Assembly (NCBI GenBank): GCA_039995105.1
Contig: CP146203.1
Span: 620,001 to 684,000 of the forward strand
Origin: Jonesiaceae bacterium BS-20
GTDB lineage: Bacteria; Actinomycetota; Actinomycetes; Actinomycetales; Cellulomonadaceae
DNA length: 64,000 nucleotides
Reading direction: 5' to 3'
How positions within the stretch are numbered: position 1 is the stretch's first letter; each line of letters begins with the position of its first letter. The notes beneath the pieces were generated by a model. It was not told the DNA's origin. It saw only the letters and a list, made by a program, of their open reading frames with translations, and ran no database searches. Below are positions 9,791-48,998 of the stretch, one piece after another. The position numbers and the translations under genes were made by a program.

Positions 9791-11157
9791 TCCAAAACCT
9801 GATGGCCCGCGGGCCGCTGCCCGGTCAAGGTTTGGCTTCCAACCGCGCGACAGGAAGGCCCCCCGACGCCCCCAACTTTGAAGACTCACTTAGCAGTGCA
9901 CAGACTCATCTTGACCGGGCCCAGACCGAACCGGGCGCCCAGGATGGCGCCCAGGGTGTAACGGATTTGGGTGGTGGACGAGTTCAGGACGGGCAAGAAC
10001 ACCAGGCCCCACCGGAGGGTGAACCGGTTCCGGCGTTTGCGCTGGCAGGTTCGGTTTCCAACTCCCCAGATCAGCCCGCCCAGCAACCGGTTCCACCCGA
10101 GCTTGCGCGCGACAGCGCGCACCACCAAGGTATAACCGAGCTGGCTGGCGGCGTGACGCCAAGTACAGACCAAACCGGTACTAACCAGTTCGGTGCTGAC
10201 CAATTGGATACTGACCAAACCGGGGCACAGGCATCGGCCGCGAGCAACGGGGTAACCGCCAACGAAATGCCGGCCGGACCAGGCACATCCAGAACAGGTT
10301 TTGGCGCGGCTGAGGTAAGGGGCGCGGCAATTGGCCGCGCACCTAACATAACGGGTCAACCTACCGGGCAAGTACCGGCGCAAACCACGGCGTTCCAAAA
10401 CCTCACCACGGGGGAACTTGCCGCGGGACAGAATCTTGGCGCGCACCAGGAATCTGACGGCGCAGTGCCCGCTCCCGGTGGCTCAGCGCTCACCCCAACT
10501 GGCGGTGATGTGGCCGGTAGCCCCGTAACCGGGGGGTCTTTGGCCCAAGGCAATCTGACCGGTCAAGACACGGGCGTGCTTCAGACAGACCCGAGTGGCC
10601 CCCGCACGGTGGGCGCGGAGGCTGTTGGCGCACCGGAGCCACAATCCGGGGTCACTGGGCCGCGTCACGCTAACCAAACCGCACACGTCAATCAGGGGGC
10701 CCCGCCCCCACTTGCCCAGCAGGTACGCGGGCCGATTGGCCAATTGCGTACCGCAGCGGCGGGCGACCACGTATTTTCTATTCGCATCACCCCAGAAAAC
10801 CTAGGACCGGTCCAAGTGCGCGCCCACATTGGCGGCGACGGTATCCGGGTGGAACTCGTTGGGGCAAGCGATGCTGTGCGCGACCAGTTGCGCACCATGC
10901 TCTCAGACCTGCGCAGGGACCTGCAGTCCACGGGCATGACCGCACAGTTGAGCGTTTCCAACTCAGACGCCCCCGCCCATGACAAACTGCCCGGCCACGG
11001 ATTCAAAGACCAACCGGACCGCGAGCACAACCCAAATGCTCAACAAAGTCGCGCTGACCGCACAGATTTAGGACCCGGCGCACTGACCATCCAAGCCGAT
11101 TCCGGCGCACCACAATCACCGAACTACACCGCATCCGGTGTGGACATCTTGGCTTAG
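9787..11157 (+). CDS. fliK: flagellar hook-length control protein FliK
   Basis: A 456-aa secreted ruler that stops hook growth. Residues 1-300 are disordered, Gly/Gln/Thr/Pro-rich and partly repetitive (for example TDQTGTNQFGADQLDTDQTG). The C-terminal Flg_hook domain is clear at about residues 325-400: HVFSIRITPENLGPVQVRAH, then IRVELVGASDAVRDQLRTML, which contacts FlhB for the export switch. GTG 9787 overlaps the hydrolase stop by four bases. flgD follows nine bases later. Confidence 0.88.
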   Translation: MIQNLMARGPLPGQGLASNRATGRPPDAPNFEDSLSSAQTHLDRAQTEPGAQDGAQGVTDLGGGRVQDGQEHQAPPEGEPVPAFALAGSVSNSPDQPAQQPVPPELARDSAHHQGITELAGGVTPSTDQTGTNQFGADQLDTDQTGAQASAASNGVTANEMPAGPGTSRTGFGAAEVRGAAIGRAPNITGQPTGQVPAQTTAFQNLTTGELAAGQNLGAHQESDGAVPAPGGSALTPTGGDVAGSPVTGGSLAQGNLTGQDTGVLQTDPSGPRTVGAEAVGAPEPQSGVTGPRHANQTAHVNQGAPPPLAQQVRGPIGQLRTAAAGDHVFSIRITPENLGPVQVRAHIGGDGIRVELVGASDAVRDQLRTMLSDLRRDLQSTGMTAQLSVSNSDAPAHDKLPGHGFKDQPDREHNPNAQQSRADRTDLGPGALTIQADSGAPQSPNYTASGVDILA

Positions 11158-11166
11158 GGAGACAGC

Positions 11167-11691
11167 ATGCCACTTGATGTAAATGCAGTAAGCGGAGCCG
11201 GGCTCTACACCAATAGCGGTGGAGTGCCAGAGGCCAAGAAGGAAATGGACTCCGAGACGTTTATGAAGCTCTTGCTAGCCCAACTTCGGTTCCAAGACCC
11301 CAGCACGCCCATGTCCACCAATGAAATGATGGCGCAAACCACCCAACTTGCGACGATGGAACAGTTGACCAACATCGCAACCACGGTCACCGAGGGGTTT
11401 GCCCTTGCCATGCGTGACACGGCAGCCAACCTCGTTGGGAAAACCGTCACCTACCAATTAGCCGATGGCGAGTTTGTGACCGGTCAGGTCCAATCCGTGC
11501 GGTATGACGGTGCCGTGCCATCGGTCAACGTCGATGGCACCGATATTCCATTGGACGCTGTGCTTGCCGTCCTCGGTGCTGCCCCAAGCACCACCCCGGA
11601 TGAAGAAGCGCCGCACCCTGACGACCCTGACGCAACCGACCCTGCGCCAGATAATTCTTTGCCTGAAAACCCAGAAGCAGATGCGGCGTAA
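11167..11691 (+). CDS. flgD: flagellar hook capping/scaffold protein FlgD
   Basis: A 174-aa hook cap needed for FlgE polymerisation. The conserved N-terminal FlgD block is present: EMDSETFMKLLLAQLRFQDP, then STPMSTNEMMAQTTQLATME. A short tudor-like stretch (LVGKTVTYQLADGEFVTGQV) follows. The C terminus is a Pro/Asp/Glu-rich tail instead of a full FnIII domain, a common short form. It sits between fliK and flgE. Confidence 0.93.
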   Translation: MPLDVNAVSGAGLYTNSGGVPEAKKEMDSETFMKLLLAQLRFQDPSTPMSTNEMMAQTTQLATMEQLTNIATTVTEGFALAMRDTAANLVGKTVTYQLADGEFVTGQVQSVRYDGAVPSVNVDGTDIPLDAVLAVLGAAPSTTPDEEAPHPDDPDATDPAPDNSLPENPEADAA

Positions 11692-11723
11692 CGCCGGAAA
11701 CCCAAGTTAAGGAACTGAAAGTA

Positions 11724-12920
11724 ATGCTACGTTCGTTGTTCTCCGGAATTTCCGGAATGCGCGCCCACCAAACCATGCTCGACGTGACGGGTAATAACAT
11801 TGCCAACGTCAACACCACCGGATTCAAGGCCTCTCAAACCCAGTTCACGGACACCTTGAGCCAGGTACTCAATGCCACCGGTGCCCCTGGCCGTGGCGCT
11901 GGTGGAACCAACCCCGCACAAGTTGGTCTGGGAGTCCAGGTTGCCGCCGTGACCACCAACTTCTCCACGGGAGCGCGCCAAACCACCGGCCGCTCAACCG
12001 ACATGATGATCTCCGGTGACGGTTTCTTCGTTGTACAAAAGGGCGGTCAGCAGGCCTACACCCGGGCGGGCTCATTCGACTTCGATGCCAACGGCAACCT
12101 AGTTTCCCCGGACGGCAGCTTTGTCATGGGCTGGGGCGCACAAAATGGGGTGGTCAACCCGAACTCAATCTTGGCGCCACTTAAGCTGCCAACCACCACG
12201 CTCTCCGGTGCGGCAGCCACGGGTAAGATCACGTTCGACGGCAACCTGCCATCTGACGCCGAAGCGGCTACGGAACTGACCCGCGATGTTGAAGTGTATG
12301 ACAACCTGGGTGCGGCCCGCACCGTCACGCTGACCTTCACCAAGGTCGACACCCCCGAGGGTGACCCAGCGCAGTGGGAGGTAACAGCGAAAGATCCAAA
12401 AACTGGTGCGACCACAACCCAGACCCTCGCATTCGATGGGGACGGGCGCCTCACATCCGGGGGAAACCTCAACCTTGGCAACATGGACATTGACCTAAGT
12501 ACGCTCACTGGGTTTGCCGACCTCAACACCATGGCGGTGGCCAGCCGCGACGGTCAGGCGGCCGGTGTGCTTGAGTCCTTCTCAATCACGGCAGACGGAA
12601 CCATCTTGGGTGCGTTCTCCAACGGACGTAAGGAAGAAATTGGCCGGATCGCGTTGGCCAACTTTGACAACGCAAGCGGTTTAGAAAAGCTTGGTGGTTC
12701 CATGTATGGGGCTTCGGTCAACTCGGGAGATCCACAGATCGGTGGTGCCGGTGAGGGTGGGCGCGGCGACCTCGTGGGCAATGCCCTTGAAATGTCTAAC
12801 GTGGACTTGTCTCAAGAATTTACCAACCTGATTGTGGCCCAGCGCGGGTTCCAAGCGAACTCACGCATCATCACCACATCTGACGAGGTCCTCCAGGAAC
12901 TGGTCAACCTCAAGCGTTAA
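11724..12920 (+). CDS. flgE: flagellar hook protein FlgE
   Basis: A 398-aa hook subunit. The N terminus MLRSLFSGISGMRAHQTMLD with NNIANVNTTGFKASQTQF and the C terminus VDLSQEFTNLIVAQRGFQAN with IITTSDEVLQELVNLKR are diagnostic. Internal FlgE motifs (ISGDGFFVVQ and TRAGSFDFDANGNLVSPDG) are intact. No flgF or flgG is present, which fits Gram-positive flagella where FlgE-type proteins do most of the work. The gene ends the flgB operon and is followed by a strong terminator. Confidence 0.95.
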   Translation: MLRSLFSGISGMRAHQTMLDVTGNNIANVNTTGFKASQTQFTDTLSQVLNATGAPGRGAGGTNPAQVGLGVQVAAVTTNFSTGARQTTGRSTDMMISGDGFFVVQKGGQQAYTRAGSFDFDANGNLVSPDGSFVMGWGAQNGVVNPNSILAPLKLPTTTLSGAAATGKITFDGNLPSDAEAATELTRDVEVYDNLGAARTVTLTFTKVDTPEGDPAQWEVTAKDPKTGATTTQTLAFDGDGRLTSGGNLNLGNMDIDLSTLTGFADLNTMAVASRDGQAAGVLESFSITADGTILGAFSNGRKEEIGRIALANFDNASGLEKLGGSMYGASVNSGDPQIGGAGEGGRGDLVGNALEMSNVDLSQEFTNLIVAQRGFQANSRIITTSDEVLQELVNLKR

Positions 12921-12930
12921 CCATCAAAAG

Positions 12931-12965
12931 GCCCGCCACGGTGTAACCACCGTGGCGGGCTTCTT
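12931..12965 (+). terminator. rho-independent terminator after flgE
   Basis: A 13-bp perfect stem (12931-12943 with 12948-12960) and loop TAAC, followed by TTCTT. It closes the flgB-flgE operon 10 bases after the flgE stop. Confidence 0.9.
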
Positions 12966-13004
12966 GGACTCTACTCAGCTCGAGAGCCCGCGTGTGTAAG
13001 AACC

Positions 13005-13031
13005 TAAAATCCAAGTCAAGTTGGCCGATCA
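13005..13031 (+). promoter_or_regulatory. sigma-28 (FliA) type promoter of flbD-motAB
   Basis: TAAA at 13005-13008, a 15-base spacer, and GCCGATCA at 13024-13031. This is the closest of the five to the FliA consensus. The block GGCCGATCAGGTGGGGT is shared with the fliD and flgB promoters. The flbD start is 53 bases downstream. Confidence 0.82.
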
Positions 13032-13083
13032 GGTGGGGTGTAGGGCCCATGGAAGGGCCTAGATTCTTGTCAAGGATGGAACT

Positions 13084-13338
13084 GTGATTGTTGTTAGCAA
13101 GCTGAGCAAAGAGAAATTTGCTGTCAACCCGGATCTGATCCAACGTATTGACAGCTCCCCGGACACCATTTTGACCCTGGTTGATGGCACCAAGTACATC
13201 GTGCGTGAGTCAATGGCACAGGTTATTGACCTCATTGACGCCCACCGGGTCATGATCATCTCCCGCTCTCAGAACTTCGACCAGCCCCAAGACCCGGGCA
13301 CTTCTGGCCGTCTTTCCCTGATTCACACAGAGGACTAA
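13084..13338 (+). CDS. flbD: FlbD-family small flagellar protein
   Basis: An 84-aa protein of the short FlbD (swarming motility SwrD-like) family. It starts MIVVSKLSKEKFAVNPDLIQ and continues IDSSPDTILTLVDGTKYIVR, then ESMAQVIDLID, which is the whole family core. In Bacillus such proteins raise motor torque by supporting stator function. That fits its place directly before motA. GTG 13084 follows AAGGATGGAACT. The last 20 residues are a polar tail. Confidence 0.85.
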   Translation: MIVVSKLSKEKFAVNPDLIQRIDSSPDTILTLVDGTKYIVRESMAQVIDLIDAHRVMIISRSQNFDQPQDPGTSGRLSLIHTED

Positions 13339-13340
13339 GC

Positions 13341-14123
13341 ATGGATCCGGCAAGCATCGTTGGTCTGTTGGTTGCGGTTGGCGCAATCCTTTTAGCCATT
13401 TTCCTTGAGGGCTCCAGCCCCATGTCCATCCTGATCCCAGCTCCAATGATTCTGGTCTTTGTGGCCACTTTTGGGATCACCCTTGCGGGTGGGACACTGC
13501 GTGATTGTGTCGCCGCGTTCAAGGCTGTTCCTGGTGCGTTCACCGGTAAACCCAAGAGTGCAGCGCACTCGGTGGACATGATTGTGAGCTTGGCTGAGCA
13601 GGCCCGGCGTGATGGGCTCTTGGCTCTTGAGGAGTCCAGCCGAGAGATCGACAACGAGTTTTTGCGTGACGGCTTGCGTGCCGCTATCGATGGCGCTGAC
13701 CCTGATGATCTGCGTGAGCTGCTCGAGGACAAGATTGATACCAAGCGCGCGTCAGACAAGATTGCGTATGGATTTTTCAATGATATGGGCGGATACGCAC
13801 CCACCATTGGCATTGTGGGCACCGTGATTTCGCTTGTGCACGTGCTCGAAAACCTTGCGGACCCCGCCGAACTTGGGCATATGATTGCCGCCGCGTTTGT
13901 GGCAACCCTTTGGGGTATTGCCTCGGCGAACGTCATTTGGTTTCCAATCGCAAACCGACTCAAGCGTCTGTCCAACCTCGAATGTGAGGAGATGGAGATC
14001 ATCTTGGAGGGCTTGTTAGCCGTGCAATCGGGTGCGAGTCCTCGTGCGGTCAATGAGCGGTTGCGCTCTTTGATTACCGACTCCTCACGGAGTACAGCTT
14101 CCGGGGACAAGGCGGCGGCGTGA
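13341..14123 (+). CDS. motA: flagellar stator protein MotA
   Basis: A 260-aa proton-channel stator subunit. It has four membrane segments: residues about 3-22, 33-50, then a long cytoplasmic loop, then two segments near 150-200 (YAPTIGIVGTVISLVHVLEN and MIAAAFVATLWGIASANVIW). The cytoplasmic loop holds the charged residues that contact FliG. ATG is two bases after the flbD stop, and the gene overlaps motB by four bases. Confidence 0.95.
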   Translation: MDPASIVGLLVAVGAILLAIFLEGSSPMSILIPAPMILVFVATFGITLAGGTLRDCVAAFKAVPGAFTGKPKSAAHSVDMIVSLAEQARRDGLLALEESSREIDNEFLRDGLRAAIDGADPDDLRELLEDKIDTKRASDKIAYGFFNDMGGYAPTIGIVGTVISLVHVLENLADPAELGHMIAAAFVATLWGIASANVIWFPIANRLKRLSNLECEEMEIILEGLLAVQSGASPRAVNERLRSLITDSSRSTASGDKAAA

Positions 14124-15001
14124 GTGCACGTAGAAAGCGGCGCAATCGTGGTGGTGTGGAAGAAGAATCGTCCGCATCGGAGCGTTGGTTAGTCAGCTAT
14201 GCGGACATGTTGACCGTTCTGGTTGGCCTCTTTATTGTCTTGTATGCCATGTCCCAGGTGGATCAGGCCAAGTTTGAACAGTTAGCGGCGTCGCTCGCGG
14301 TTGGGTTTGGTGGGGAATCGCAGTCCGTGCTCAGCAGTGGCAGCACTATCTTGGCCCAGACCGGCCCGGTTGTCCCGAACATTACGCCGAGCCTAGAAAC
14401 ACCAATGAATGGCCCCGGTGGTCAATCCCAAGAGGTCAACCCTGAGGCAATCGATCCGGAAGATTTGGCCGCTGCCCGGTCCGAACTCGAGAACTTGCAA
14501 GCGCTGGCGAAGGCTCTTGAAGCAGCTCTTGAGGCCAAGGATCTGGAAAGCAGCGTCACCTACCGCATTACTGAGCGTGGCTTGGTTGTGGGGCTGGTTT
14601 CCGACGAGTTATTTTTTGTGGCTGATACGGCTCAACTAACCGAGACCTCCAAACGGGTTGTTGACGTTCTCGCACCGGTTTTGGGTGTGCTGCCCAATCA
14701 GCTCTCGATAGAGGGCCATGCGAACAGCGTGCCGTCCGTGCGGTATCCCACGAACTGGGAGCTATCCGCCGACCGGTCCACCCAGGTGCTGCGGCGTTTT
14801 GTTGAGGAGGGCGAACTCAATTCCACGCGGATTGCGAGCGTTGGCTTTGGGGAATCCCGCCCTCTTATCGACAACACCACGACCGAGGGGCTGGCCGTTA
14901 ATCGCCGGGTAGATGTGGTTATTTTGTCCGCTGAGCCCGAGCACATACGTGAACTTATTCCAGTGGTCCAGGAGACGCTGGCCGATAATGAGGAAAAATA
15001 A
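14120..15001 (+). CDS. motB: flagellar stator protein MotB
   Basis: A 293-aa stator subunit with one membrane helix (about residues 24-45) carrying the proton-binding Asp29 in SYADMLTVL. A linker follows and then an OmpA-like peptidoglycan-binding domain at about residues 150-275, with IEGHANSVP, NWELSADRSTQVLRRFVEEG and NRRVDVVIL. All are family hallmarks. GTG 14120 overlaps motA by four bases and the stop overlaps the fliL ATG by one. Confidence 0.95.
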   Translation: MSARRKRRNRGGVEEESSASERWLVSYADMLTVLVGLFIVLYAMSQVDQAKFEQLAASLAVGFGGESQSVLSSGSTILAQTGPVVPNITPSLETPMNGPGGQSQEVNPEAIDPEDLAAARSELENLQALAKALEAALEAKDLESSVTYRITERGLVVGLVSDELFFVADTAQLTETSKRVVDVLAPVLGVLPNQLSIEGHANSVPSVRYPTNWELSADRSTQVLRRFVEEGELNSTRIASVGFGESRPLIDNTTTEGLAVNRRVDVVILSAEPEHIRELIPVVQETLADNEEK

Positions 15002-33734: not shown

Positions 33735-35549
33735 ATGATCCCCGAGGATGAGAAAGACACATTTCTTAGACAGGGTATTTCGAGCCCGTATTTTCTGGAT
33801 GCTCTGGCTTGGGTTGTAGCAATTCCCCTGGCAGAGGTAATCCGCTTCGAATTTGTTTTTGCAAGTATGAATTTTCTAATAACCCTAATTTTGGTGCCGG
33901 CCGCGGTGGTCCTGCAATGGGTACTAGGAGCCGTTACTCACCTGTATAGGGCGGGTAACATTCGTGGTTCGTTTGAGGAACTGCGGACCCTAACAGTCAC
34001 CGTCATGCTGGTTGGCAGCGCTGTTTTGATTCCAATCCTGGTGGTTGGGCCGCGCATGGGAGTTTCACGCGGTGCCGTCATGATTTCGGTTCCGTTAGCG
34101 CTGATTGCTATGGCCGGCGTACGGTACGTTACCCGCGCCGGTATGGAAAAGAAGATCCTCAAGATGCAGGTGGCAGAGCCCGTGATTATTTTTGGGGCTG
34201 GCCCAATGGCGGTCCACCTGGTTGATCAACTCTTGACGGACCCCGAGTCACCCTTGCACCCGGTAGCAATCTTGGATGAAACAGAATTCAATCATTACCG
34301 GTACATTCGCACGGTTCCCGTGCTAGGCACCCTGCAGGACCTTGACCAGGTTGCTAGGGAACATGAGGCCAAGGTTCTGCTTATTGCAATCCCACACATT
34401 GACCGTGAACTGCATTGTCAGATCCTCAAAACGGCCAGCGCTCTTGGGATTGAGGTGCGAGTTTTCCCAACCCTGCAGCGCGCCCTCATTCACACGCGCA
34501 CCGCGGCAACGAGCACCCTGCGAGGTGTTCCGATTGAGGACTTGATTCAACGCAGGCAGGTGGAGACTCAAGTTGCCAACATTGCCGGTTACGTCAGGGG
34601 ACAGCGCGTCCTTGTCACCGGTGCCGGTGGCTCAATCGGGTCAGAGCTGAGTTTGCAGCTCAGCAAGTTTAATCCGTCCGAGCTCATCATGCTGGACCGT
34701 GATGAGACCGGACTGCAACATACTCAGCTCAAGGTCCGGGGCAACGGCCTGTTGGACACCGACGAGGTTGTGCTTGCGGATATTCGCGATGAAAACGCGA
34801 TGATGGAACTGTTGGCCCGGCGCCAACCAGACGTGGTGTTTCACACCGCCGCGTTGAAGCATCTGCCAATGCTTGAGCAGTACCCGCAAGAGGCCTGGAA
34901 GACCAACGTCTTGGGCACAAGGAACGTTCTTGAGGCCGCCAGGAATGCCGGTGTGGGCACCTTTATCAACATTTCAACGGACAAGGCCGCCAACCCTACG
35001 AGCGTGCTGGGACTGTCCAAAAAGTACGCGGAGATGCTGACAGCGTGGTACGCCAACGAATTTCAGGGTTCCTATCTATCGGTGCGCTTTGGCAACGTGA
35101 TAGGTAGCCGGGGATCCATGCTCCCCACGTTCATCTCACTGATTGAGGAGCGGCGCCCCCTAACGGTTACGCACCCGGATGTCACCCGCTACTTCATGAC
35201 CATTCCGGAGGCCTGCCAACTGGTAATCCAGGCCGGTGGCATTGGGCGCAAGGCAGAGGTGCTGATCTTAGATATGGGCGACCCCATCAAGATCATGGAC
35301 ATTGTTGACAAGATGATTGATTTATCCGGCCAACCCGTTGAAATCATCTTTACGGGACTGCGTAGCGGGGAGAAGATGCATGAGGACCTGGTGAGTTTCA
35401 CGGAAGAACTCGCGCGTCCGTTCCACCCCAAGATCATGCACACCCGTGCGCTCCCGCTTGCCCCTGCGGACCTTGACCTTGGGGCGTGGAAATCGTTGGT
35501 CCTGGGCCGCGCGCTCGCAGTGGATAGCGAGTTGGAGGCCACGGGATGA
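33735..35549 (+). CDS. PglF/WbpM-type UDP-sugar 4,6-dehydratase
   Basis: A 604-aa membrane-anchored nucleotide-sugar dehydratase. About four membrane helices (residues 15-130) and a CoA-binding-like domain (about 150-270, FGAGPMAVHLVDQ) precede an SDR domain with GAGGSIGSELSLQL and STDKAANPTSVLGLSKK. In PglF and WbpM this last motif contains Thr-Asp-Lys and a Met in place of the SDR Tyr, plus a Lys four residues later. Here Thr, Asp and both Lys are kept but the Met is Leu. The expected reaction is UDP-GlcNAc to the 4-keto-6-deoxy sugar. It overlaps the aminotransferase gene by four bases. Confidence 0.88.
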   Translation: MIPEDEKDTFLRQGISSPYFLDALAWVVAIPLAEVIRFEFVFASMNFLITLILVPAAVVLQWVLGAVTHLYRAGNIRGSFEELRTLTVTVMLVGSAVLIPILVVGPRMGVSRGAVMISVPLALIAMAGVRYVTRAGMEKKILKMQVAEPVIIFGAGPMAVHLVDQLLTDPESPLHPVAILDETEFNHYRYIRTVPVLGTLQDLDQVAREHEAKVLLIAIPHIDRELHCQILKTASALGIEVRVFPTLQRALIHTRTAATSTLRGVPIEDLIQRRQVETQVANIAGYVRGQRVLVTGAGGSIGSELSLQLSKFNPSELIMLDRDETGLQHTQLKVRGNGLLDTDEVVLADIRDENAMMELLARRQPDVVFHTAALKHLPMLEQYPQEAWKTNVLGTRNVLEAARNAGVGTFINISTDKAANPTSVLGLSKKYAEMLTAWYANEFQGSYLSVRFGNVIGSRGSMLPTFISLIEERRPLTVTHPDVTRYFMTIPEACQLVIQAGGIGRKAEVLILDMGDPIKIMDIVDKMIDLSGQPVEIIFTGLRSGEKMHEDLVSFTEELARPFHPKIMHTRALPLAPADLDLGAWKSLVLGRALAVDSELEATG

Positions 35550-36709
35550 AATACGAGATCTTGTTGTCCTCACCCGATGTTGGCGCCCTTGAAGAACAGG
35601 CAGTTGTTGCGGCGTTCCGGTCGGGCTGGATTGCCCCGCTGGGTCCGGAGGTCGATCAGTTTGAGGCAGACGTTAGTGCCTACATCGGGGTGGAACACGG
35701 CATAGCCTTGGCATCCGGAACCGCCGCTTTGCACCTGGGGTTGCTGGCGTTGAACGTTGGGCGCGGTGACATTGTCCTGACCTCGACAATGACGTTTGCG
35801 GCCACGGCGTTCGCAATTACGTATACGGGGGCCACCCCGTACTTCATTGATTGCTTGCCGGGCACCGGCAATATGGATCCGCAGCTACTTCACGATGCCT
35901 TAGCTGGGTTGGCCCAACAAGGCCTGCGAGCGGCCGCAATAGTTCCGGTTGACCTGCTGGGCCGGGTTGCGGATTACACCAGCATTTTGGCGGTGGCTCA
36001 AGAGTTTGGGGTTCCGGTATTTGCTGATGCTGCGGAATCAATGGGAGCGAGGGGACAGGGCCGTGCCGCCGGGAGCTTTGGGGACGCGGCCGTTCTCTCG
36101 TTCAACGGGAACAAGGTCATGACCACTTCCGGTGGTGGCATGCTCGTGACAAACTCCGCGGAGATTGCCAGCTACGTTCGCTACCTGAGCACGCAAGCAC
36201 GTGAGCCGGTCATGCACTACGAGCACACGCACATTGGGTACAACTACCGGTTGAGCAACTTGCTTGCGGCACTGGGGCGGGCACAGTTGCAACGGCTGGA
36301 TGAGATGGTTGCCAAACGCAGTGCGGTTCGCAAGTTCTACGGTGAACTCCTCTGCGAGGTTGAGGGGGTCAAAATCCTTGGCGAGTCCCAGGTCAATGAC
36401 GCAGGCGCGGGGGCATCAGGCCTGGATAACTCCTGGCTGACTGCGATCACCGTGGATGCAAGTAAGTCGCACTTCAAACCCGCGGAACTGAGCGGGTACC
36501 TAGCCAAGCACGGCATAGAGAGCCGGCCGTTGTGGAAGCCCATGCACCTGCAACCAATCTTTGCGGGAGTAAACGGGTCCATTAACGGCTCCGCCGAGCG
36601 TCTCTATGACCAGGGCGTGGTGTTGCCCAGCGGATCGAACCTCACCAACGATCAACTGGACCGGATAGGCACCACAATTACCAACTTTGTTGCAGGTGAC
36701 TGGCCATGA
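35546..36709 (+). CDS. DegT/DnrJ/EryC1-family sugar aminotransferase
   Basis: A 387-aa PLP enzyme, like PglE, that transfers an amino group to a 4-keto sugar nucleotide. Family motifs: LASGTAALHLGLLALNVGRG, STMTFAATAFAITYTGA, the aspartate in VPVFADAAESMGA, and the PLP Lys in SFNGNKVMTTSGGGMLV. ATG 35546 overlaps the dehydratase stop and the end overlaps the sugar transferase. The order dehydratase-aminotransferase-transferase is that of the bacillosamine (pgl) pathway. Confidence 0.92.
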   Translation: MKYEILLSSPDVGALEEQAVVAAFRSGWIAPLGPEVDQFEADVSAYIGVEHGIALASGTAALHLGLLALNVGRGDIVLTSTMTFAATAFAITYTGATPYFIDCLPGTGNMDPQLLHDALAGLAQQGLRAAAIVPVDLLGRVADYTSILAVAQEFGVPVFADAAESMGARGQGRAAGSFGDAAVLSFNGNKVMTTSGGGMLVTNSAEIASYVRYLSTQAREPVMHYEHTHIGYNYRLSNLLAALGRAQLQRLDEMVAKRSAVRKFYGELLCEVEGVKILGESQVNDAGAGASGLDNSWLTAITVDASKSHFKPAELSGYLAKHGIESRPLWKPMHLQPIFAGVNGSINGSAERLYDQGVVLPSGSNLTNDQLDRIGTTITNFVAGDWP

Positions 36710-37884
36710 GCCAAGACCTCATGCAAGCAAACGGCTACCTGGTAACCAAACGAGCCATTGATTCGGTAGGAGCGGGACTGCTTCTCTTGCTGCTCCTGCC
36801 CGTTCTCGGTGTTGTCGCTCTGCTTGTGCGGGTACGCCTGGGCGGTCCGGTGCTGTTCTCCCAGCGGCGGCCCGGCAAAGACGAGAAAGAATTCACCCTC
36901 TACAAGTTCCGTTCCATGGTGCAGCCAGACCCCACCAACGGTCTGATCAGCGACCAAGACCGAATAACGCCCTTTGGCCAAATGTTGCGGTCAACCAGCC
37001 TTGATGAGTTGCCATCGCTGTGGAACATCCTCAAGGGGGAGATGAGCTTTGTGGGCCCGCGCCCACTGCTCGTCAGCCACCTACCTAGGTATTCGCCCGA
37101 GCAGGGCAAACGCCACCTCATCCGGCCCGGTTTGACCGGCCTGGCTCAGGTGAGTGGACGTAACCTCCTGCCCTGGGATGAACGTTTGGGGCTCGACGTC
37201 GAATATGTGGAACGCGTGAGTTGGAAACTCGACCTGTGGATCCTTGTGCAGACCTTCGCTGTTGTCCTGAACCGAACGGGAATTTCGCAGAGCAAGGAGG
37301 AGATCACCATGGAGGAATTCTTTGGGCCACTGTCATTTTCCACGCTTGCCCTCAGGCCCACGGAAGGGCTGCGGGTCCCTCGGGGTATTGAGATGATGCC
37401 CGGCTGTTCCTGCGGACATGAATTTCATGACCGGGGAGGGTCGGCAACCGTGGAGTACCAAAACTGGGTAACACTGCGAGACCACACCCCGCTGCTTTAT
37501 GACTGGGTGGCCGTGGACCCGGCAAACTCAACGGCCAAGGCGGTGTGTGGATTGACTTTGGTCAACGCCCACAACTTTCACCGTGGCGTTGCCCAAGGAA
37601 CGGACCTAGTCGCCGAGCTGTACGTTGCGGTGCTGCGGCCCGAACATGCCATCACTGAGACCGATGCCGCGCAGGAAGTCACAACAATCGGATTCCAAGC
37701 GATCTCCCTTGTCACCACGCGGGCGCTCGCATTGGGCGTCAAAGAGCTGCGAGTGACGTGTGCCAAGACCAATGATCTGATGCTAACTCCGCTCCTGCAA
37801 TTTGGCTTCGAGATCATCCGATCCGTCCTGCAATCCAACAACTATCTACTCAGCTTTGAAACGAACCTGGGGCAAAGTGACTAG
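36706..37884 (+). CDS. phosphoglycosyl transferase fused to a GNAT-like domain
   Basis: A 392-aa protein. Residues 10-205 are a PglC/WbaP-type phosphoglycosyl transferase that starts glycan synthesis on undecaprenyl phosphate. It has a membrane re-entrant helix (SVGAGLLLLLLLPVLGVVAL), PVLFSQRRPGKDEKEFTLYK, the catalytic pair Asp-Glu in STSLDELPSLWNILKGEMSF, then VGPRPLL and RPGLTGLAQVSGRN. Residues about 225-392 resemble an acetyltransferase of the GNAT fold: AELYVAVLRPE strand, a degenerate acetyl-CoA loop near VTTIGFQAIS, and FGFEIIRS near the end. It could supply the PglD-like acetylation step. The fusion joint is near residue 205-215. The stop lies in a 17-bp tandem repeat. Confidence 0.85.
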   Translation: MSQDLMQANGYLVTKRAIDSVGAGLLLLLLLPVLGVVALLVRVRLGGPVLFSQRRPGKDEKEFTLYKFRSMVQPDPTNGLISDQDRITPFGQMLRSTSLDELPSLWNILKGEMSFVGPRPLLVSHLPRYSPEQGKRHLIRPGLTGLAQVSGRNLLPWDERLGLDVEYVERVSWKLDLWILVQTFAVVLNRTGISQSKEEITMEEFFGPLSFSTLALRPTEGLRVPRGIEMMPGCSCGHEFHDRGGSATVEYQNWVTLRDHTPLLYDWVAVDPANSTAKAVCGLTLVNAHNFHRGVAQGTDLVAELYVAVLRPEHAITETDAAQEVTTIGFQAISLVTTRALALGVKELRVTCAKTNDLMLTPLLQFGFEIIRSVLQSNNYLLSFETNLGQSD

Positions 37885-37904: not shown

Positions 37905-38056
37905 GGGAACAGGCATCGAAAATCTTGATTGGGTCCGCACAGCGGCGGACGTAGCCGGGGCACAGGTTCGTATAAGCGTTGGTTGACCGCGGATGGTCCA
38001 GCAGTTTACCGGGGCACACAACCGGTCTGGCTCTGACGTAAGGAGTGAAAGTTTAC

Positions 38057-39160
38057 ATGAAGAGTGTATTGAGGATTCTTGATAGTTCGGTTCCAGGAGA
38101 TCGCACCGAGTGGACCAACCTTTGGCTCAGTTGGCCAAACCGGGAGATACAGTCCCACCCCGGTTATGGTGAACTGTTTGCCAAACCGGGTGAACGAGTG
38201 TTGGCCGCGGCCTATTCGACCACCGCTGGGCACAACATTTTGTATCCCTTCATTTTGCGCACCATCGAAGATGATCGCGGCCCCCTGCCTTTGCGGGATA
38301 TCTCCACCCCTTATGGGTATGGCGGACCGGTCGCGTGGGGCACAGATTTAGCCCCAAATGACGCGGTGAGTTACTGGTCGCAGTTTGATGCTTGGGCAGC
38401 TTCTGAACATGTGGTCTCTGAGTTCATCCGGTACGGACTGTTTCATACGGATGACGTCCCCTATCCAGGGGAGAAGGTGACCCGCCAAGAAAATATTGTG
38501 GTGGACCTGCAACGCCCTGAAGAAGCGCTGTGGAGCAGTTTTGAGTCCAAAGTACGTAGGAACGTCAACAGGGCCAGACGCGAGGAAGTTCAGATCACGG
38601 TAGACACCACCCCACAGGGCTTTGAAAAGTTCCATCCAATCTATATCGCAACGATGGACAGGTTAGGGGCGAGTGCTGATTACTACTTCTCAGTAGACTT
38701 CTTTGGCAATATTCACCGAGATTTTCCCGGCCAGTTTGCCTACTTCTATGCCCAGATAGATGGGCGGCCGGTGTCTGCGGAACTGGTACTGGTATCCACG
38801 GATTCTGTGTACTTTTTCCTAGGTGGGACGTTGCCCGAGGGCTTCCCAAAGCGGGCAAATGAGCTGCTCAAATTTGAGGTCATCAGGTGGGCCAAGGACA
38901 TTGGAAAACAATACTTTGTCCTCGGCGGAGGGTTCGTTCCCCATGACGGGCTCGAACGGTACAAACGCTCTTTTGCGCCCCACGGAGTCCGGCAGTTTGT
39001 CACGGGCCAGCGAATCATTGATGCGCCTGCTTATGCGTCCTTGGTTACGGCAAAGCATGGCACGAGCAATCCCAGCACTTCCTTCTTTCCAAAGTATCGG
39101 GCAGGGGCCGCCAACCTGGCCGATCATGAGCCAAAGGCCCAGGTTCCAGATCATGGCTGA
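38057..39160 (+). CDS. FemAB-like/GNAT-type acyltransferase
   Basis: A 367-aa protein of the FemAB-related GNAT superfamily. A first half ends in LWSSFESKVRRNVNRARREE, the typical helix between the two GNAT-like subdomains. The second half has GRPVSAELVLVSTDSVYFFL and GGTLPEGFPKRANELLKFEV, with the conserved final PHDGLERYKRSFAP. Members add amino acids or acyl groups to peptidoglycan precursors or polysaccharides. The acceptor here is unknown, with a sugar amine of this locus plausible. ATG 38057 uses AAGGAG at 38040-38045. The GTG at 38045 overlaps that site and is rejected. Confidence 0.75.
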   Translation: MKSVLRILDSSVPGDRTEWTNLWLSWPNREIQSHPGYGELFAKPGERVLAAAYSTTAGHNILYPFILRTIEDDRGPLPLRDISTPYGYGGPVAWGTDLAPNDAVSYWSQFDAWAASEHVVSEFIRYGLFHTDDVPYPGEKVTRQENIVVDLQRPEEALWSSFESKVRRNVNRARREEVQITVDTTPQGFEKFHPIYIATMDRLGASADYYFSVDFFGNIHRDFPGQFAYFYAQIDGRPVSAELVLVSTDSVYFFLGGTLPEGFPKRANELLKFEVIRWAKDIGKQYFVLGGGFVPHDGLERYKRSFAPHGVRQFVTGQRIIDAPAYASLVTAKHGTSNPSTSFFPKYRAGAANLADHEPKAQVPDHG

Positions 39161-39301: not shown

Positions 39302-40684
39302 ATGGAATTCGGTGAGTATCTGCGGATCCTTCGTAGCAGCTGGCGCTTTGTGCTGATTGCCGGTGCCGCGGGGCTTGTCTTGGCTCTTGTCGCCTCACTC
39401 GTAGCGACCCCTCAATACCGGTCCACCGCGCAACTGTACGTCTCTGCGCGGTCTTCCTCCTCGGGCATTGATGATCTGGTCCAAGGGGCCGATTATTCCC
39501 GCCAAATTGTGGTTTCCTACGTCGACGTTGCAAAGACCTCGCTGGTGTTGAAACCGGTGATCGAGGCCCTTGAATTGGACCTCACCTCCGCGGAACTGTC
39601 CAGACTGGTCTCGGTGGAATCCCCAAAAGACACCGTTCTGGTGAACATCTCTGCAACGAGCACCGATCCTCAGCTGGCGGCCGACATAGCCAATACAACG
39701 GGTGAGAGTTTTTCACACGTGGTCCAGACGCAACTGGAGGGTGATTTGAGCTCCCAACGAAGTGGTGTGCAATTGACCTTGGTTGAGCCGGCAATTCCAG
39801 CGGATGCACCGGACAGCCCAAATACCGTGTTCAACTTGGCCGTGGGATTGCTGCTCGGGCTTGCGTTGGGTGCGGGGCTAGCGCTCGTACGGAGCATCAC
39901 TGATACCCGGATTCGCTCTATGCGCAATATCGATGAATTTAGTGACAAGCCGATTCTGGGTGGGATTCACTTTGACCCGGAAGCCAAGGAACGCCCCCTC
40001 GTCTGTACGGAACTTGGTAACCCACGGGTTGAGGCCTTTCGTAGCTTGCGCACGAATATTCAGAGCTTGGATTTGGGTGAGGGCGGACGGAGCATTGTTG
40101 TTACGAGCGCTGGCCCCGCAGAGGGCAAATCTGTTACTACGGTCAACCTTGCAATTTCGCTTGCGGAGGCCGGCTCACGCGTGGTGCTTGTTGAGGGAAA
40201 CCTGCGCCGTCCTAAGGTGGCTGAGTATATGGGGGTTGAGTCGCGGGTTGGTTTGACCGATGTCCTCAGTGGCAAGGCAAAAATTGATGACGTCATGCAC
40301 CAGTGGGGCAAGGGCCATTTGGGGGTCATTCCAGCGGGAAAGACCATCGCCAACGCGAGGGAACTGCTCGGTTCGGTTGCCATGGACAACCTCATTCAGG
40401 AGCTGGCGGACTCCTACGATTACGTGCTCATTGATTGCCCACCGGTGTTGCTGGTTACGGATGCTGCCGTTGTGGGCCAGAAGGCCTCCGGCGTTGTTGT
40501 TGTGGTTGCCTCCGGGGCCACCAAGAAGCACGCTTTTGATACGGCGCAGCGCACCCTTGAGTCTGCGGGGGCAAAAATTCTGGGCCTCATAGTCACCAAA
40601 CTCCCAACAAAGGGCCCGGATAGTTACGGCTATGACGCTGGTGGCTATGGGTACGGCGTTGAAGAGTCTCAACTGCACAATTAA
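39302..40684 (+). CDS. Wzz-type polysaccharide co-polymerase fused to BY-kinase (copy 1)
   Basis: A 460-aa protein. The N-terminal Wzz domain has membrane helices at about residues 16-38 and 178-200. A cytoplasmic BY-kinase domain follows. The P-loop is SAGPAEGKSVTT with Lys276, and the Walker B is VLIDCPPV. The Walker A' region reads VVLVEGNLRRP, with Asn300 where an Asp is usual. A Tyr/Gly-rich tail (YGYDAGGYGYG) is the expected autophosphorylation cluster. It controls polymer length and export. The paralogue at 47.3-48.7 kb keeps the Asp. Confidence 0.9.
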   Translation: MEFGEYLRILRSSWRFVLIAGAAGLVLALVASLVATPQYRSTAQLYVSARSSSSGIDDLVQGADYSRQIVVSYVDVAKTSLVLKPVIEALELDLTSAELSRLVSVESPKDTVLVNISATSTDPQLAADIANTTGESFSHVVQTQLEGDLSSQRSGVQLTLVEPAIPADAPDSPNTVFNLAVGLLLGLALGAGLALVRSITDTRIRSMRNIDEFSDKPILGGIHFDPEAKERPLVCTELGNPRVEAFRSLRTNIQSLDLGEGGRSIVVTSAGPAEGKSVTTVNLAISLAEAGSRVVLVEGNLRRPKVAEYMGVESRVGLTDVLSGKAKIDDVMHQWGKGHLGVIPAGKTIANARELLGSVAMDNLIQELADSYDYVLIDCPPVLLVTDAAVVGQKASGVVVVVASGATKKHAFDTAQRTLESAGAKILGLIVTKLPTKGPDSYGYDAGGYGYGVEESQLHN

Positions 40685-40699: not shown

Positions 40700-41758
40700 G
40701 TGACTGACAACGACATTTTTGCACTTGATCCTCAGGACCCTGAAGATCCGGTCCCTTCTAGTGCTCCCCGGAAGCAGCGGTTGTGGTTGCGCATTGTTGT
40801 TGGCACCTTTGTGGCCCTGTTTGTGGCCGGCGGGGCCGCCGCCGGGATCTTTATCTACAACCTCAACTCCAGTTTTGATCAGGCGGTAAAGCTAGCTCCA
40901 GCGGAGGTTTTCCCGGAGGAAACCCACCGTCCGGAACCGGTCAAGCGCCCGGAAACCGCCAAGCACGACGCCCAAAATATACTACTACTTGGCTCCGACA
41001 GCCGTGGTGGGATCGAGGATAACCTCGACGATATTAAGGGCACACGCTCGGACGTCATCATGGTTGCGCATATCCCCGCAAACCGTGAGTCTGTTCAGGT
41101 GATCTCATTCATGCGTGACAACTGGGTGGACATCCCCGGGTACGGCAAGAACAAGATCAATGCCGCGTTGGCATACGGGGGAGTGCCGCTGATCGTGCAA
41201 ACGATTGAGGGGATTATCGACGCCCGCATCGATCACGTTGCGGTGATCGACTTTGAGGGCTTTCAAGGACTCACCGATGCCCTTGGTGGCGTCACGCTGC
41301 ATAACCCGTTCTCTTTTCATAGCTCGAGCGGACCGAGTTTTGCGGAAGGGGACATTACGCTCAACGGGGAGGATGCGCTCGCATACGTGCGCGAGCGGTA
41401 TTCGTTTGCTGACGGCGATTACTCGCGGGCAGCGAACCAGCAGCGGTACCTCAAGGCGGTTATTTCTAGTTTTCTGTCAAAGGACACTTTGCTGAACCCG
41501 GCTAAACTTGCCGGGGCGGTAGATGCCATTGCCCCTTACCTGACGGTGGATGAGGGCCTGTCCCCAACGTATCTTGCGTCGCTGGGTGCATCGATGCCCC
41601 AAATACGTGCTGAGGATATTACCTTCTTCACCTCGCCCACCCTTGGTACGGGCATGGTGGGGGAGGCATCGGTTGTGCACCCGGATTGGGACCAGCTGGC
41701 GGTCATTGCGGAACACTTCCGCAATGACACGCTCAGTGAGTACGCTGCCAACAACTAG
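40700..41758 (+). CDS. LytR-CpsA-Psr (LCP) family glycopolymer ligase
   Basis: A 352-aa enzyme that moves lipid-linked glycopolymers onto peptidoglycan outside the cell. A cytoplasmic N terminus of 25 residues is followed by one membrane helix (LWLRIVVGTFVALFVAGGAA). The LCP domain runs from ILLLGSDSRGG to about residue 255, with TRSDVIMVAHIPANRESVQV, SFMRDNWVDIPGYGKNKINA and GEDALAYVRERYSF, where the Asp and Arg residues that bind the pyrophosphate are kept. GTG 40700 comes 15 bases after copy 1 of the BY-kinase. Its stop lies in a 13-bp repeat. Confidence 0.93.
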   Translation: MTDNDIFALDPQDPEDPVPSSAPRKQRLWLRIVVGTFVALFVAGGAAAGIFIYNLNSSFDQAVKLAPAEVFPEETHRPEPVKRPETAKHDAQNILLLGSDSRGGIEDNLDDIKGTRSDVIMVAHIPANRESVQVISFMRDNWVDIPGYGKNKINAALAYGGVPLIVQTIEGIIDARIDHVAVIDFEGFQGLTDALGGVTLHNPFSFHSSSGPSFAEGDITLNGEDALAYVRERYSFADGDYSRAANQQRYLKAVISSFLSKDTLLNPAKLAGAVDAIAPYLTVDEGLSPTYLASLGASMPQIRAEDITFFTSPTLGTGMVGEASVVHPDWDQLAVIAEHFRNDTLSEYAANN

Positions 41759-43230: not shown

Positions 43231-44502
43231 GTGCAAGTTTCTAAGTCAGCTGCGGCACCAAGTTTCCCCGCCTCCATGTTGTTTATGTTTGGTGCGTTAC
43301 TGAACCAAACCAGTGTCATATTCGGAGTCAATCTCTCGCTGGCTGATCTGCTAGCCGTACTCCTGCTATTTTTTGCGGCACTACACGGGTTCCTCTATGT
43401 TCCCAAGTACGTGACCTTGTTCTTCCTTATCATCACGTTGGTCACGGTCACTGTAGGGGTGTTTATTACCCCAATGAAACTGTCATTTCCCGTGGATCCC
43501 ATGAGCGTAACCGTCGATTACATCAAACTGTTGACGTCATTCGCATATGTTGTTTTGGGAGCCACCCTTGTGCGCTACCAACGGTTCGCATTGATCCTGC
43601 GCGGGTTTGCAATCGTTGCGGTGGCAATCGGGTTTGTCGCCGTCGTTGACATGGCGGTACCGGGCATACTGCCAATTGAGCCCATGTACTATGCGGGCGT
43701 TCGGTTCCGCGGACTCTTGAATGATCCAAACTATTTTGCCGTGTTGCAGATTGCCGCCATAGCAATCATCTGGCGGGACAAGCAGCTGCGCCCCATGGTC
43801 AGGTTTGCCAGTTTTGGGATCATCGCAGTATCAGTCTTGGCCAGCGGGTCAAAGACCGGGCTGATCGTCATGTTGGCGCTCATAGCGTGGCACCTCTTTT
43901 TGTTCATTTTTGGGGGCCAAAACTCCACACGGTCAGTTGCCAGGGTCATGATCTTTGGATTCCTGCTTGCGGTCCTGGCCACCCTGATTGCCTTTGTTGG
44001 GAGCAAGACCCTGATGCTGGGCTTAGTTGCCCGCATGGAAACCAATCCTGCATTGGCACGGTTAGCACCGCTCTTGACGGACTTTGCCACCGGGATTGAT
44101 GCCAACGGGTCCGGGCGCGGTGGCGCCTGGGAGGGCGCCCTGGCCCTTATCAATAACTCACCGTTCTTTGGGGTAGGGGTTGGTACCTATCTCGATGCCG
44201 GGGAGATCCTCACCGGTGAGCAGGTCCTTGCTCACAATACGTTTCTACAACTGGCGGCGGAGTGGGGCCTACCACTGGCGGCATTCTTCTTCTTTTTGGT
44301 GCTCATTGTCCTCATCAAGCGCCCCGCCCAAGATGCAAGTAGACTTTGGGAAACTAACAGGGATGTCCTGTTAGTGCTGCTTGTTGGATCAGTCGGAATT
44401 TCGTTGAATAATGCGCGGCTATTTTGGCTCGTACTGGGCGCAGTGGTCGCAGCCTATTTTTACCAGGAAGACACTGCAGAATTACGGGTAGACAGCGCGT
44501 AA
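43231..44502 (+). CDS. O-antigen ligase/polymerase (Wzy) family membrane protein
   Basis: A 423-aa polytopic protein of about 11 membrane helices. The Wzy_C signature is visible in the outer loop and following helix: GRGGAWEGALALINNSPFFG, GVGVGTYLDAG, then HNTFLQLAAEWGLPLAAFFF. It is likely the polymerase that joins repeat units outside the membrane. GTG 43231 has GGGAG at 43219-43223. Confidence 0.82.
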   Translation: MQVSKSAAAPSFPASMLFMFGALLNQTSVIFGVNLSLADLLAVLLLFFAALHGFLYVPKYVTLFFLIITLVTVTVGVFITPMKLSFPVDPMSVTVDYIKLLTSFAYVVLGATLVRYQRFALILRGFAIVAVAIGFVAVVDMAVPGILPIEPMYYAGVRFRGLLNDPNYFAVLQIAAIAIIWRDKQLRPMVRFASFGIIAVSVLASGSKTGLIVMLALIAWHLFLFIFGGQNSTRSVARVMIFGFLLAVLATLIAFVGSKTLMLGLVARMETNPALARLAPLLTDFATGIDANGSGRGGAWEGALALINNSPFFGVGVGTYLDAGEILTGEQVLAHNTFLQLAAEWGLPLAAFFFFLVLIVLIKRPAQDASRLWETNRDVLLVLLVGSVGISLNNARLFWLVLGAVVAAYFYQEDTAELRVDSA

Positions 44503-47251: not shown

Positions 47252-48700
47252 CTAGGCCTTTCTTCGGCGGGCTTTAATAGGGGCACGTTTGGGCTTGGAA
47301 CCTGCTGGTTTTATGGGGTTTGTGACCTCGGATAGTTCGGTAGGACCGTAGCTGTACTGGCCGTAACCGTAGCTATCTGGCCCCTTAGTGGGCAGCATCG
47401 TAACGACCAGCCCCAAGACCTTTGCTCCCGCGGTCTCAAGTGCGTGTACAGCGGCGTTAAAGGCCTGCTTCTTAGTCGAACCGGATGCGACAATCACAAT
47501 GACGCCGGAGGCTTTCTTACCAACTACTGCGGCATCTGTAACCATCAGAACCGGCGGAGCATCAATCAAGATGTATTCGAAGCGTTCTGCAAGTAACTCA
47601 AGGGTGCTATCCATGGCGCGCGATCCCAAAAGTTCACTTGGGTTGGGAGGAATGCGCCCGGCTGGCAGCACAAAGAGTTGGCCACGGCCCCAACGGTGCA
47701 TCACGTCATTGATCCGTGCCTTGCCAATGAGAACATCGGTTAGACCTGCCCCTGAGTGGATACCCATGTACGTTGCGACCTTGGGCAGACGCAGATCGCC
47801 TTCAACGAGCACCACGCGTGCGCCGGTCTCCGCAAGAGAGATAGCAAGATTAGCAGCGGTGGTGGACTTACCCTCGGAAGGACCAGCACTAGTGAGGACA
47901 AAGCTGTGGCCCCCTTCACCAAAGTTCAGGAACTGGAGGTTGGTGCGCAGACTACGGAAGGATTCTGCCCGGGGGTTACGTGGATCCGTGTGGACAATGA
48001 GCGGACGTTCTGCAGTGTCGGGGTCGAATGCAATACCTCCCAACAGCGGCTGGTCGGTGATCTCTTCGATGTCCTGGAGCGAGTGGATACGAGTGTCAAG
48101 TACAGAACGCACAACCGCAGAGCCAACGCCGAGTGCCATACCCAGTAAGAAACCGAAAGCAAAGTTCACCTTAGTGTTGGGGCTGGTAGGGGCGATAGGC
48201 TCAGTAGCAGGTTGGGTAGTGGTCAGGCGTACGATGCTGCTCTGGGCATCCTTTCCGTCGCCTTCAAGTGTGGTTTGGACCACGTTCGCAAAACTGTCGC
48301 CGGTAGCATTAGCAATATCCGCGGCCTGCTTTGGATCAGTACTCGTTGCAGTGATATTGATCAAGACAGTGTTGAGCGGGGAATCAGCAGAGATCGACTT
48401 ACTTAGCTCTCCGGAAGTAATGTCGAGCCCGAGCTCTTCAATTACGGGATCTAGGACGACCGAGGTGTTAACAATGTCAACGTAGGAGGCCACAATTTGG
48501 CGGGCAAAGTTAGAACCCTGAACTAGGTCACCCGTTGCTGAGGACTCAGGGCGCACGGATACGTATAACTGCGTTTTACCCTGATACTGGGGAGCCATCA
48601 AAAGGGAGACAACACCAGCCAAACCAACGCCTACTAGGGTTGTGGCGATGATCAGTGCCCAGCTCTTGTGCAAGATCCGTAAGTAAACGCGTAATTCCAC
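47252..48700 (-). CDS. Wzz-type polysaccharide co-polymerase fused to BY-kinase (copy 2)
   Basis: A 482-aa paralogue of the protein at 39.3-40.7 kb, similar along its length. Wzz domain with two membrane helices (WALIIATTLVGVGLAGVVSL and the later FAFGFLLGMALGVGSAVVRS). BY-kinase with P-loop SAGPSEGKSTTA, Walker A' VVLVEGDLRLP (Asp kept) and Walker B ILIDAPPV. The Tyr cluster is SYGYGQYSYGP and the end is strongly basic. GTG 48700 is chosen because GAGAGGGG lies upstream and the N terminus then aligns with copy 1. It is transcribed away from the DUF-type membrane gene at 49 kb. Confidence 0.9.
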   Translation of the reverse strand: MELRVYLRILHKSWALIIATTLVGVGLAGVVSLLMAPQYQGKTQLYVSVRPESSATGDLVQGSNFARQIVASYVDIVNTSVVLDPVIEELGLDITSGELSKSISADSPLNTVLINITATSTDPKQAADIANATGDSFANVVQTTLEGDGKDAQSSIVRLTTTQPATEPIAPTSPNTKVNFAFGFLLGMALGVGSAVVRSVLDTRIHSLQDIEEITDQPLLGGIAFDPDTAERPLIVHTDPRNPRAESFRSLRTNLQFLNFGEGGHSFVLTSAGPSEGKSTTAANLAISLAETGARVVLVEGDLRLPKVATYMGIHSGAGLTDVLIGKARINDVMHRWGRGQLFVLPAGRIPPNPSELLGSRAMDSTLELLAERFEYILIDAPPVLMVTDAAVVGKKASGVIVIVASGSTKKQAFNAAVHALETAGAKVLGLVVTMLPTKGPDSYGYGQYSYGPTELSEVTNPIKPAGSKPKRAPIKARRRKA

Positions 48701-48998
48701 GAGGTGCGCCCCTCTCATTGCGTTGTTCGTTCCATCTACATGGTTCCACAAACGGAGGGAAAACGTGAGGAGTGCGAAGCAAACCACTGCTTCCCATCAT
48801 TTGGCGAGGACACGCTAATTTGGGAAAATTCAAAAAAATAGAGCAGTGGGATGCAGAGCACACAGTTGTGTTGGTCTTATCGGGGGTATCCGCCTAAAGG
48901 CTGACATTGGTGGACCCGGGCTGAACTGTCCTAGGACCTAAGTCTGATTTCTGGGAAATTGCTTTATTTGGCCATGGGTTGGCGGCTAGGTTGGTTGA

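Follow-up and report, generated by a model that had tools for sequence, protein, structure and literature searches.

A phosphoglycosyl transferase (PGT) gene with an in-frame C-terminal extension was found in Jonesiaceae bacterium BS-20, within a stretch of 64,000 nucleotides (contig CP146203.1, positions 620,001 to 684,000), here called the window. The fusion is real, and so is a pathway in this genome without a detectable PglD. The extension, hereafter the tail, has a probable GNAT identity, catalysis by it is doubtful judging from its sequence, and the FemX-like gene next to it, from its position and co-occurrence, is more likely than the tail to be the N-acylating candidate. The explanation we favour, tentatively and as a whole somewhat short of probable, is a priming PGT whose tail is a decayed GNAT retained for docking or regulation, with the FemX-like neighbour as N4 acylator.

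The PGT gene and its cluster

The gene follows those of a PglF-like dehydratase and a PglE/LegC-like aminotransferase and directly precedes the FemX-like gene (Table 1), its ORF overlapping that of the aminotransferase by 4 bases. The NCBIfam models PseB and FnlA matched the 604-aa dehydratase, both below cut-off, and the aminotransferase scored 323 bits against the LegC family TIGR04181, under the cut-off of 420. Downstream of the PGT-tail gene lie the chain-length/autokinase, LCP and polymerase genes of Table 1 and also two glycosyltransferase genes (Pfam), and by gene content the cluster looks like one of exopolysaccharide or capsule type. Two Wzz/tyrosine-autokinase-like genes (39302-40684 and 47252-48787) lie on opposite strands, are alike by eye over much of their length and flank the polymerase and glycosyltransferase genes.

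Table 1. Features of the cluster, with window positions; G499 is a same-family genome with a related fusion
Feature	Positions	Strand	Description
PglF-like membrane-anchored nucleotide-sugar 4,6-dehydratase	33735..35549	+	604 aa; PF02719 5.1e-98 at residues 292-570; PF13727
PglE/LegC-like DegT aminotransferase	35546..36709	+	387 aa; PF01041 2e-93
PGT-tail ORF	36706..37884	+	392 aa, ATG start, intact
PGT domain, residues 1-205	36706..37320	+	PglC-type small monotopic PGT; PF02397
C-terminal domain (tail), residues 206-392	37321..37884	+	~187 aa; probably GNAT-derived; weak collinearity with G499, low-confidence AF2 models
Residues 254-285 (WVTLRDHTPLLYDWVAVDPANSTAKAVCGLTL)	37465..37560	+	matches G499 GNAT; pairwise blastp 4e-4, 13/32 identical
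Residues 311-325 (RPEHAITETDAAQEV)	37636..37680	+	putative acetyl-CoA loop position, by reading against HGRGHG of G499; glycine-free
FemAB/FemX-like transferase	38045..39160	+	371 aa; PF13480 2.3e-16; PF02388 1.3e-5, over its cut-off
Wzz-type chain-length / tyrosine autokinase	39302..40684	+	PF02706, PF13614
LCP-family glycopolymer transferase	40700..41758	+	PF03816 3.4e-41
Wzy/O-antigen ligase-like polymerase	43231..44502	+	PF04932 2.2e-13

PF02397 at residues 15-188 (8.3e-59) was the sole Pfam match of the 392-aa protein, and this Bac_transf domain stands without a long N-terminal CoA_binding_3 region, as defines a small monotopic PGT. The best solved relatives in a PDB sequence search were two entries of N,N'-diacetylbacillosaminyl-1-phosphate transferase (8e37 and 8g1n; 1.7e-53 and 8.6e-53). 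When aligned to 8e37, the DE of SLDELP and the PRP of GPRPLL fell in register; the DE dyad of PGTs is catalytic and the PRP residues bind uridine, according to an excerpt of PMC10653937 (published work is cited from excerpts throughout). The tail is in frame and coding, with a codon-position GC similar to the values for the PGT part and the neighbouring genes. A frameshift behind the loss of the acetyl-CoA loop described below was rejected, as stops interrupt both other frames of the tail. The first-pass annotation, made from the letters of the window, had proposed a PGT with a C-terminal extension here, which the exact ORF, the Pfam domain, the solved relatives and the coding tail bear out.

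The tail and the related fusion of G499

Searched on its own, the tail gave no Pfam match at E up to 10, with no recognition by a GNAT profile, no NCBIfam match at E up to 1 (PseH model included), two matches only against PDB sequences, both at E about 1, and no match on plasmids. Against 396 genomes of the order, the matches beyond its own genome were confined to E 0.001-0.1, many of them in long frames. A weak match (~33% identity) to residues ~84-153 of query P0002 recurred in this search in many order genomes, in frames mostly of 550-750 aa. When the whole protein was used, the furthest query residue matched among the best 80 of 359 relatives was 274 (L064), at a locus where the PGT frame stops 9 aa past the PGT. 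Apparent long extensions at L009, L118, L135 and L138 proved to be split domain matches and were left uncounted.

In 221 genomes of the same family, matches at 1e-44 or better were found in 11, counting that of the window. One of these, G499, matched the window protein through residue 286, into the tail. In G499 a GNAT domain (PF00583 6.4e-14; PseH model 5.4e-9, below cut-off) is joined in frame to the end of the PGT, in a PglF-PglE-PGT operon as in the window, and PglD was detected neither in the 20 kb around it nor elsewhere in the genome. Residues 254-285 of the window protein give the best match to this GNAT, at an equal distance from the PGT in both proteins. A score as good as that of the window tail against the G499 GNAT was reached by 3 of 5000 shuffles and by one of 3775 ORFs of a six-frame translation of the retrieved stretches. 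The first half of the tail carries the match (1/5000 shuffles as good); the second half, gap-free and in the register expected, does not reach significance by itself (1229/5000). When G499 served as query, the 1e-44 threshold was passed by 37 places, spread over 36 of 396 genomes of the phylum; the window match reached query residue 284 and the remaining places ended at 215 or earlier.

Other comparisons were weaker. The hhalign probability for the window against G499 was 28.6 per cent. A profile of the 20 other long tails of our locus survey (below) found G499 at 2.9e-7 and the window only at 0.0064, each in a two-sequence search, with an hhalign probability for the window of 0.4 per cent. 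Against the stand-alone GNAT of G600 the window tail scored no better than shuffles (1188/2000), and against that of G189 27 of 2000 shuffles were as good, in a stretch that does not correspond. For the long tail of G084, 33 of 1000 shuffles were as good as the window tail; a likeness of the G084 tail to the G499 GNAT by pairwise score was rejected, being no better than shuffles (468/1000). From these sequence comparisons the window tail is probably GNAT-derived.

The motifs of a working GNAT were sought in the tail by scan and by reading. The consensus of the acetyl-CoA P-loop, Q/R-x-x-G-x-G/A before helix alpha3 (PMC4964394, excerpt), is absent from it, even when H or K is allowed in first place. 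A Tyr ahead of the GF motif is likewise missing, the window having LLQFGF where G499 has LYRSLGF. The loop of G499, HGRGHG, is itself off the strict consensus, with His for Q/R, and working GNATs with an atypical loop exist, such as AAC(2')-Ic (same excerpt); because of these two cases, the missing consensus is not proof of lost function. An active but divergent GNAT with an unusual CoA-binding loop, N-acetylating the UDP-4-amino sugar before the PGT step, would fit such atypical loops. It would also fit the G499 operon, where Pfam recognises the GNAT fused to the PGT, a window genome in which neither PglD nor PseH exceeds its cut-off, and the example of PseH, which shows that GNATs acting on UDP-4-amino sugars exist (PMC4363471, excerpt). 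We consider it somewhat unlikely nonetheless, as the tail has neither the consensus loop nor a glycine at the putative loop position nor the Tyr before GF, and is recognised by neither Pfam nor NCBIfam.

Fold prediction of the tail, which the first-pass annotation had proposed as a check, was run with AF2 on single sequences without an alignment. Residues 203-392 gave a mean pLDDT of 42.9, and residues 240-392 a mean of 54.6 with a pTM of 0.51 and the element order E E E E H E H E; the order of strands and helices in these low-confidence models would suit a GNAT. In Foldseek the first model had GNATs in all of its top eight rows, which come from two PDB entries (E 0.1-0.61), but the folds were mixed overall: the trimmed model (240-392) returned RNase H-like, RuvC and ribosomal chains with no GNAT among the 50 rows listed, and neither model had a match at 0.001. 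VIA-align of the trimmed model reached Z 6.9 at most, and threonyl-tRNA synthetase editing domains ranked at the top, with GNATs also among the matches listed; the editing domains covered model residues 40-151 and most GNAT rows nearly the whole model. The models are thus compatible with a GNAT, yet are no evidence by themselves. The annotated GNAT likeness of the tail is weakly supported by the collinear match to G499 and from these compatible models, while the absence of a Pfam or NCBIfam match and of the acetyl-CoA signature speaks against it.

The tail could instead be an unrelated alpha/beta domain, its similarity to G499 arising from chance and a shared position after the PGT. Consistent with this, it matches no family and not the stand-alone GNAT of G600, no GNAT stood among the 50 Foldseek rows listed for the trimmed model, and the editing domains led the VIA-align result at Z under 7. 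The collinear G499 match, the GNATs in the top eight Foldseek rows of the first model and the near-complete coverage by most VIA-align GNAT rows speak against it, and we regard the unrelated domain as unlikely.

PglD and FemAB genes in the genome and at related loci

The NeuD/PglD model TIGR03570 gave nine matches in the window genome (3.53 Mb), none full length or over cut-off and none in the PGT-tail gene. Of the two best, both partial, one fell in a CysE-like frame next to a frame resembling cysteine synthase, the other in a frame resembling maltose acetyltransferase (names by reading the sequence). A PglD hidden elsewhere in the genome is rejected at the level of this model, and the annotated absence of a separate PglD, for which a stand-alone copy elsewhere had been named as the refuting result, withstood this genome-wide check. 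PseH matched at six weak places, all under cut-off.

For the survey of related loci, up to 20 kb were taken around each PGT place matching at 1e-44 or better, window included, which gave 64 rows from 63 loci in 59 genomes, with some stretches ending at contig ends (e.g. L192, L197). An extension of 100 aa or more was counted as a long tail, and PglD was called at E below 1e-30. PglD was nearby in none of the 22 long-tail rows and in 27 of the 42 short rows (Fisher 1.2e-7, rows related); as the rows are related, with perhaps three independent cases, the P values of the survey overstate the evidence. Two short rows scored as PglD-less carry weaker PglD-like matches (L205 4e-16, L222 2e-8), and PglD is the next gene after the short PGT at, for example, L162-L165. 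On a PGT tree, 20 of the 22 long tails formed one clade (88/91), G499 fell among the PglD rows and the window was left unplaced (24/52), and because of these placements the window and G499 fusions need not share an origin. Among the tails of the large clade, the loop pattern occurred in five, at places judged to be elsewhere than the loop, and the Tyr before GF in one (L227).

Whole genomes were checked for PglD in 32 chosen cases. Full-length matches over cut-off were found in all five positive controls and in G029, and none that was full length or over cut-off in the 20 long-tail genomes, eight of which held partial matches below cut-off. No full-length PglD over cut-off was found in six short-PGT genomes either (G189, G221, G277, G432, G325, G405). 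The suggestion in the first-pass annotation that a GNAT-like tail takes the place of PglD has a clean case in G499 and agrees with the PglD genes in 27 of the 42 short rows, but it transfers poorly to the window, where the tail has no loop, Tyr or Pfam recognition and a FemX-like gene lies downstream.

This FemX-like gene (38045-39160) matched best among NCBIfam models the XrtA-type FemAB (3.9e-12) and then FemX (2.5e-8), both below cut-off, the latter with a score of 33.6 against a cut-off of 500. FemX was also its one convincing match in the PDB (6.7e-7). Membership of the FemABX family is indicated by the profile match together with the alignment of FemX Lys305 to its Lys307; FemX acts on UDP-MurNAc-pentapeptide with an aminoacyl-tRNA, and Lys305 is named in the excerpt (PMC4964394). 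The equivalent position is Lys in all 21 aligned rows (matches below 1e-15; one row repeats the window). This Lys may be family-wide and is no indicator of tRNA use.

With a FemAB profile built from the surveyed loci themselves (threshold E 1e-5), FemAB was detected in 12 of 22 long-tail and 5 of 42 short rows (6e-4, rows related), that is in 17 of all 64 rows and in none of the 27 with PglD (2e-5, rows related). A relative of the window FemAB at 1e-15 was present in nine of 20 long-tail genomes (one being that of the window) and in none of 20 PglD genomes chosen from 27; the other 11 long-tail genomes had none at this threshold. At L218, L219 and L227 the operon consists, in order, of genes for a dehydratase, two FemAB proteins, the PGT-tail and an aminotransferase. 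In G189 the PGT gene is followed by a stand-alone GNAT gene and this by FemAB; G600 likewise has a stand-alone GNAT after its PGT, with a single gene separating the GNAT from a FemAB-like gene just under the Pfam cut-off. As GNAT and FemAB occur together in these two genomes, FemAB need not replace the GNAT. At L231 (G237), a FemAB-like frame lies between two long-tail PGT frames (8294-14356).

Six G084-type long-tail rows have no PglD, FemAB or dehydratase/aminotransferase match in their stretch. An aminotransferase lies ~12 kb from the PGT in these six genomes, and no acyltransferase was recognised by reading among the G084 genes near it. That N4 is acylated in trans by an ordinary genomic GNAT or left free, with the tail and the FemX-like gene doing something else, would suit these six rows and the six weak PseH places of the window genome, but is very improbable given the FemX-like gene directly downstream in the window and inside the operon at L218, L219 and L227.

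Other modules were seen beside related PGTs. ATP-grasp genes adjoin the PGT at L212 (Pfam) and, by reading, at L192, L223, L225 and L241, and in G615 of the same phylum (L279/L281) a Pfam-recognised ATP-grasp domain is in frame with the PGT, as an extension of 380 aa. The PglD-less locus L192 also holds a formyltransferase-like frame (by reading) beside the PGT, at 5364-6272. Adenylate-forming, CapK/PaaK-like frames (by reading) near the PGT at L212 (6871-9503), L223 (12434-13921) and L225 (14064-15410) co-occur with the ATP-grasp genes at these PglD-less loci. Judging by the gene content of the relatives, N4-acylation of bacillosamine-type priming sugars may be a slot with exchangeable occupants: PglD, a fused GNAT, a stand-alone GNAT, fused or separate ATP-grasp and FemX-like genes. 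If so, the genes beside a PGT would help to predict the N4 substituent, and a fused pseudo-enzyme would offer a means of studying the coupling of sugar modification to lipid transfer.

Proposed pathway and known systems

In the favoured explanation of a decayed GNAT tail beside a FemX-like acylator, the PglF- and PglE-like enzymes would, from their families, make a UDP-4-amino sugar. The window PGT would act as primer of an exopolysaccharide-type cluster, probably moving a 2-acetamido-4-(acyl)amino-2,4,6-trideoxyhexose-1-phosphate from UDP to undecaprenyl phosphate. Its collinearity with G499 suggests that the tail probably descends from a GNAT that had assumed the PglD role, a state retained in G499. 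Lacking both the acetyl-CoA loop and a candidate general-acid Tyr, the window tail would no longer acetylate and may have been retained for docking or regulation, and the adjacent FemX-like protein would be the likeliest enzyme to add an acyl or aminoacyl group to the 4-amino group. A more specific form, which we hold to be quite improbable, would have the FemX-like protein aminoacylate the 4-amino group of the UDP-sugar from aminoacyl-tRNA, with the degenerate GNAT as docking platform and only the modified sugar passed to the lipid carrier.

Like the Campylobacter PglF/PglE/PglD/PglC and Bacillus subtilis EpsC/N/M/L systems (the EpsCNM/EpsL pathway is described in the excerpt of PMC10653937), the window has a dehydratase, an aminotransferase and a PGT, the last matching PglC structures at ~1e-53. 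It differs from both in that no PglD/EpsM was found, in the tail of its PGT and in the adjoining FemX-like gene. FemX is the closest solved relative of that gene, with the Lys305 equivalent kept, but the window protein is distant from it (about 1e-6) and is a candidate N-acyl or aminoacyl transferase. PseH, a GNAT acting on a UDP-4-amino sugar (PMC4363471, excerpt), illustrates the likely chemistry of the G499 GNAT domain; unlike the latter and the window tail, PseH is a stand-alone protein of the pseudaminic acid pathway, and the window tail does not match its model.

The closest parallels are found in Neisseria, for which the first-pass annotation had cited a fusion of PglC with PglD; the fusion is known, but under the name PglB. 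According to excerpts of PMC11130364 and PMC6959607, PglB joins a PGT to an acetyltransferase and leads to diNAcBac, whereas PglB2 joins a PGT to an ATP-grasp domain and leads to a glyceramido sugar (GATDH), the two being mutually exclusive at the locus. As in PglB, a PGT and an N4-acylation domain would be combined in one protein of a UDP-bacillosamine-type pathway, but the left-handed beta-helix of PglD type was not detected in the window tail by family search, the tail being probably GNAT-derived and without a CoA signature. PglB2 offers the likeness of an alternative C-terminal domain that replaces the acetyltransferase and changes the N4 acyl group; the window tail has no ATP-grasp match in Pfam, unlike the PGT-ATP-grasp protein of G615, which resembles the PglB2 architecture. 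Titles and abstract openings of the literature gave no description of a PGT-GNAT fusion or of a GNAT replacing PglD, and a precedent may exist in print. By analogy, the G499 fusion would add a third option to PglB and PglB2, and the window tail resembles a later and degenerate stage, or a non-catalytic domain that the PGT has kept.
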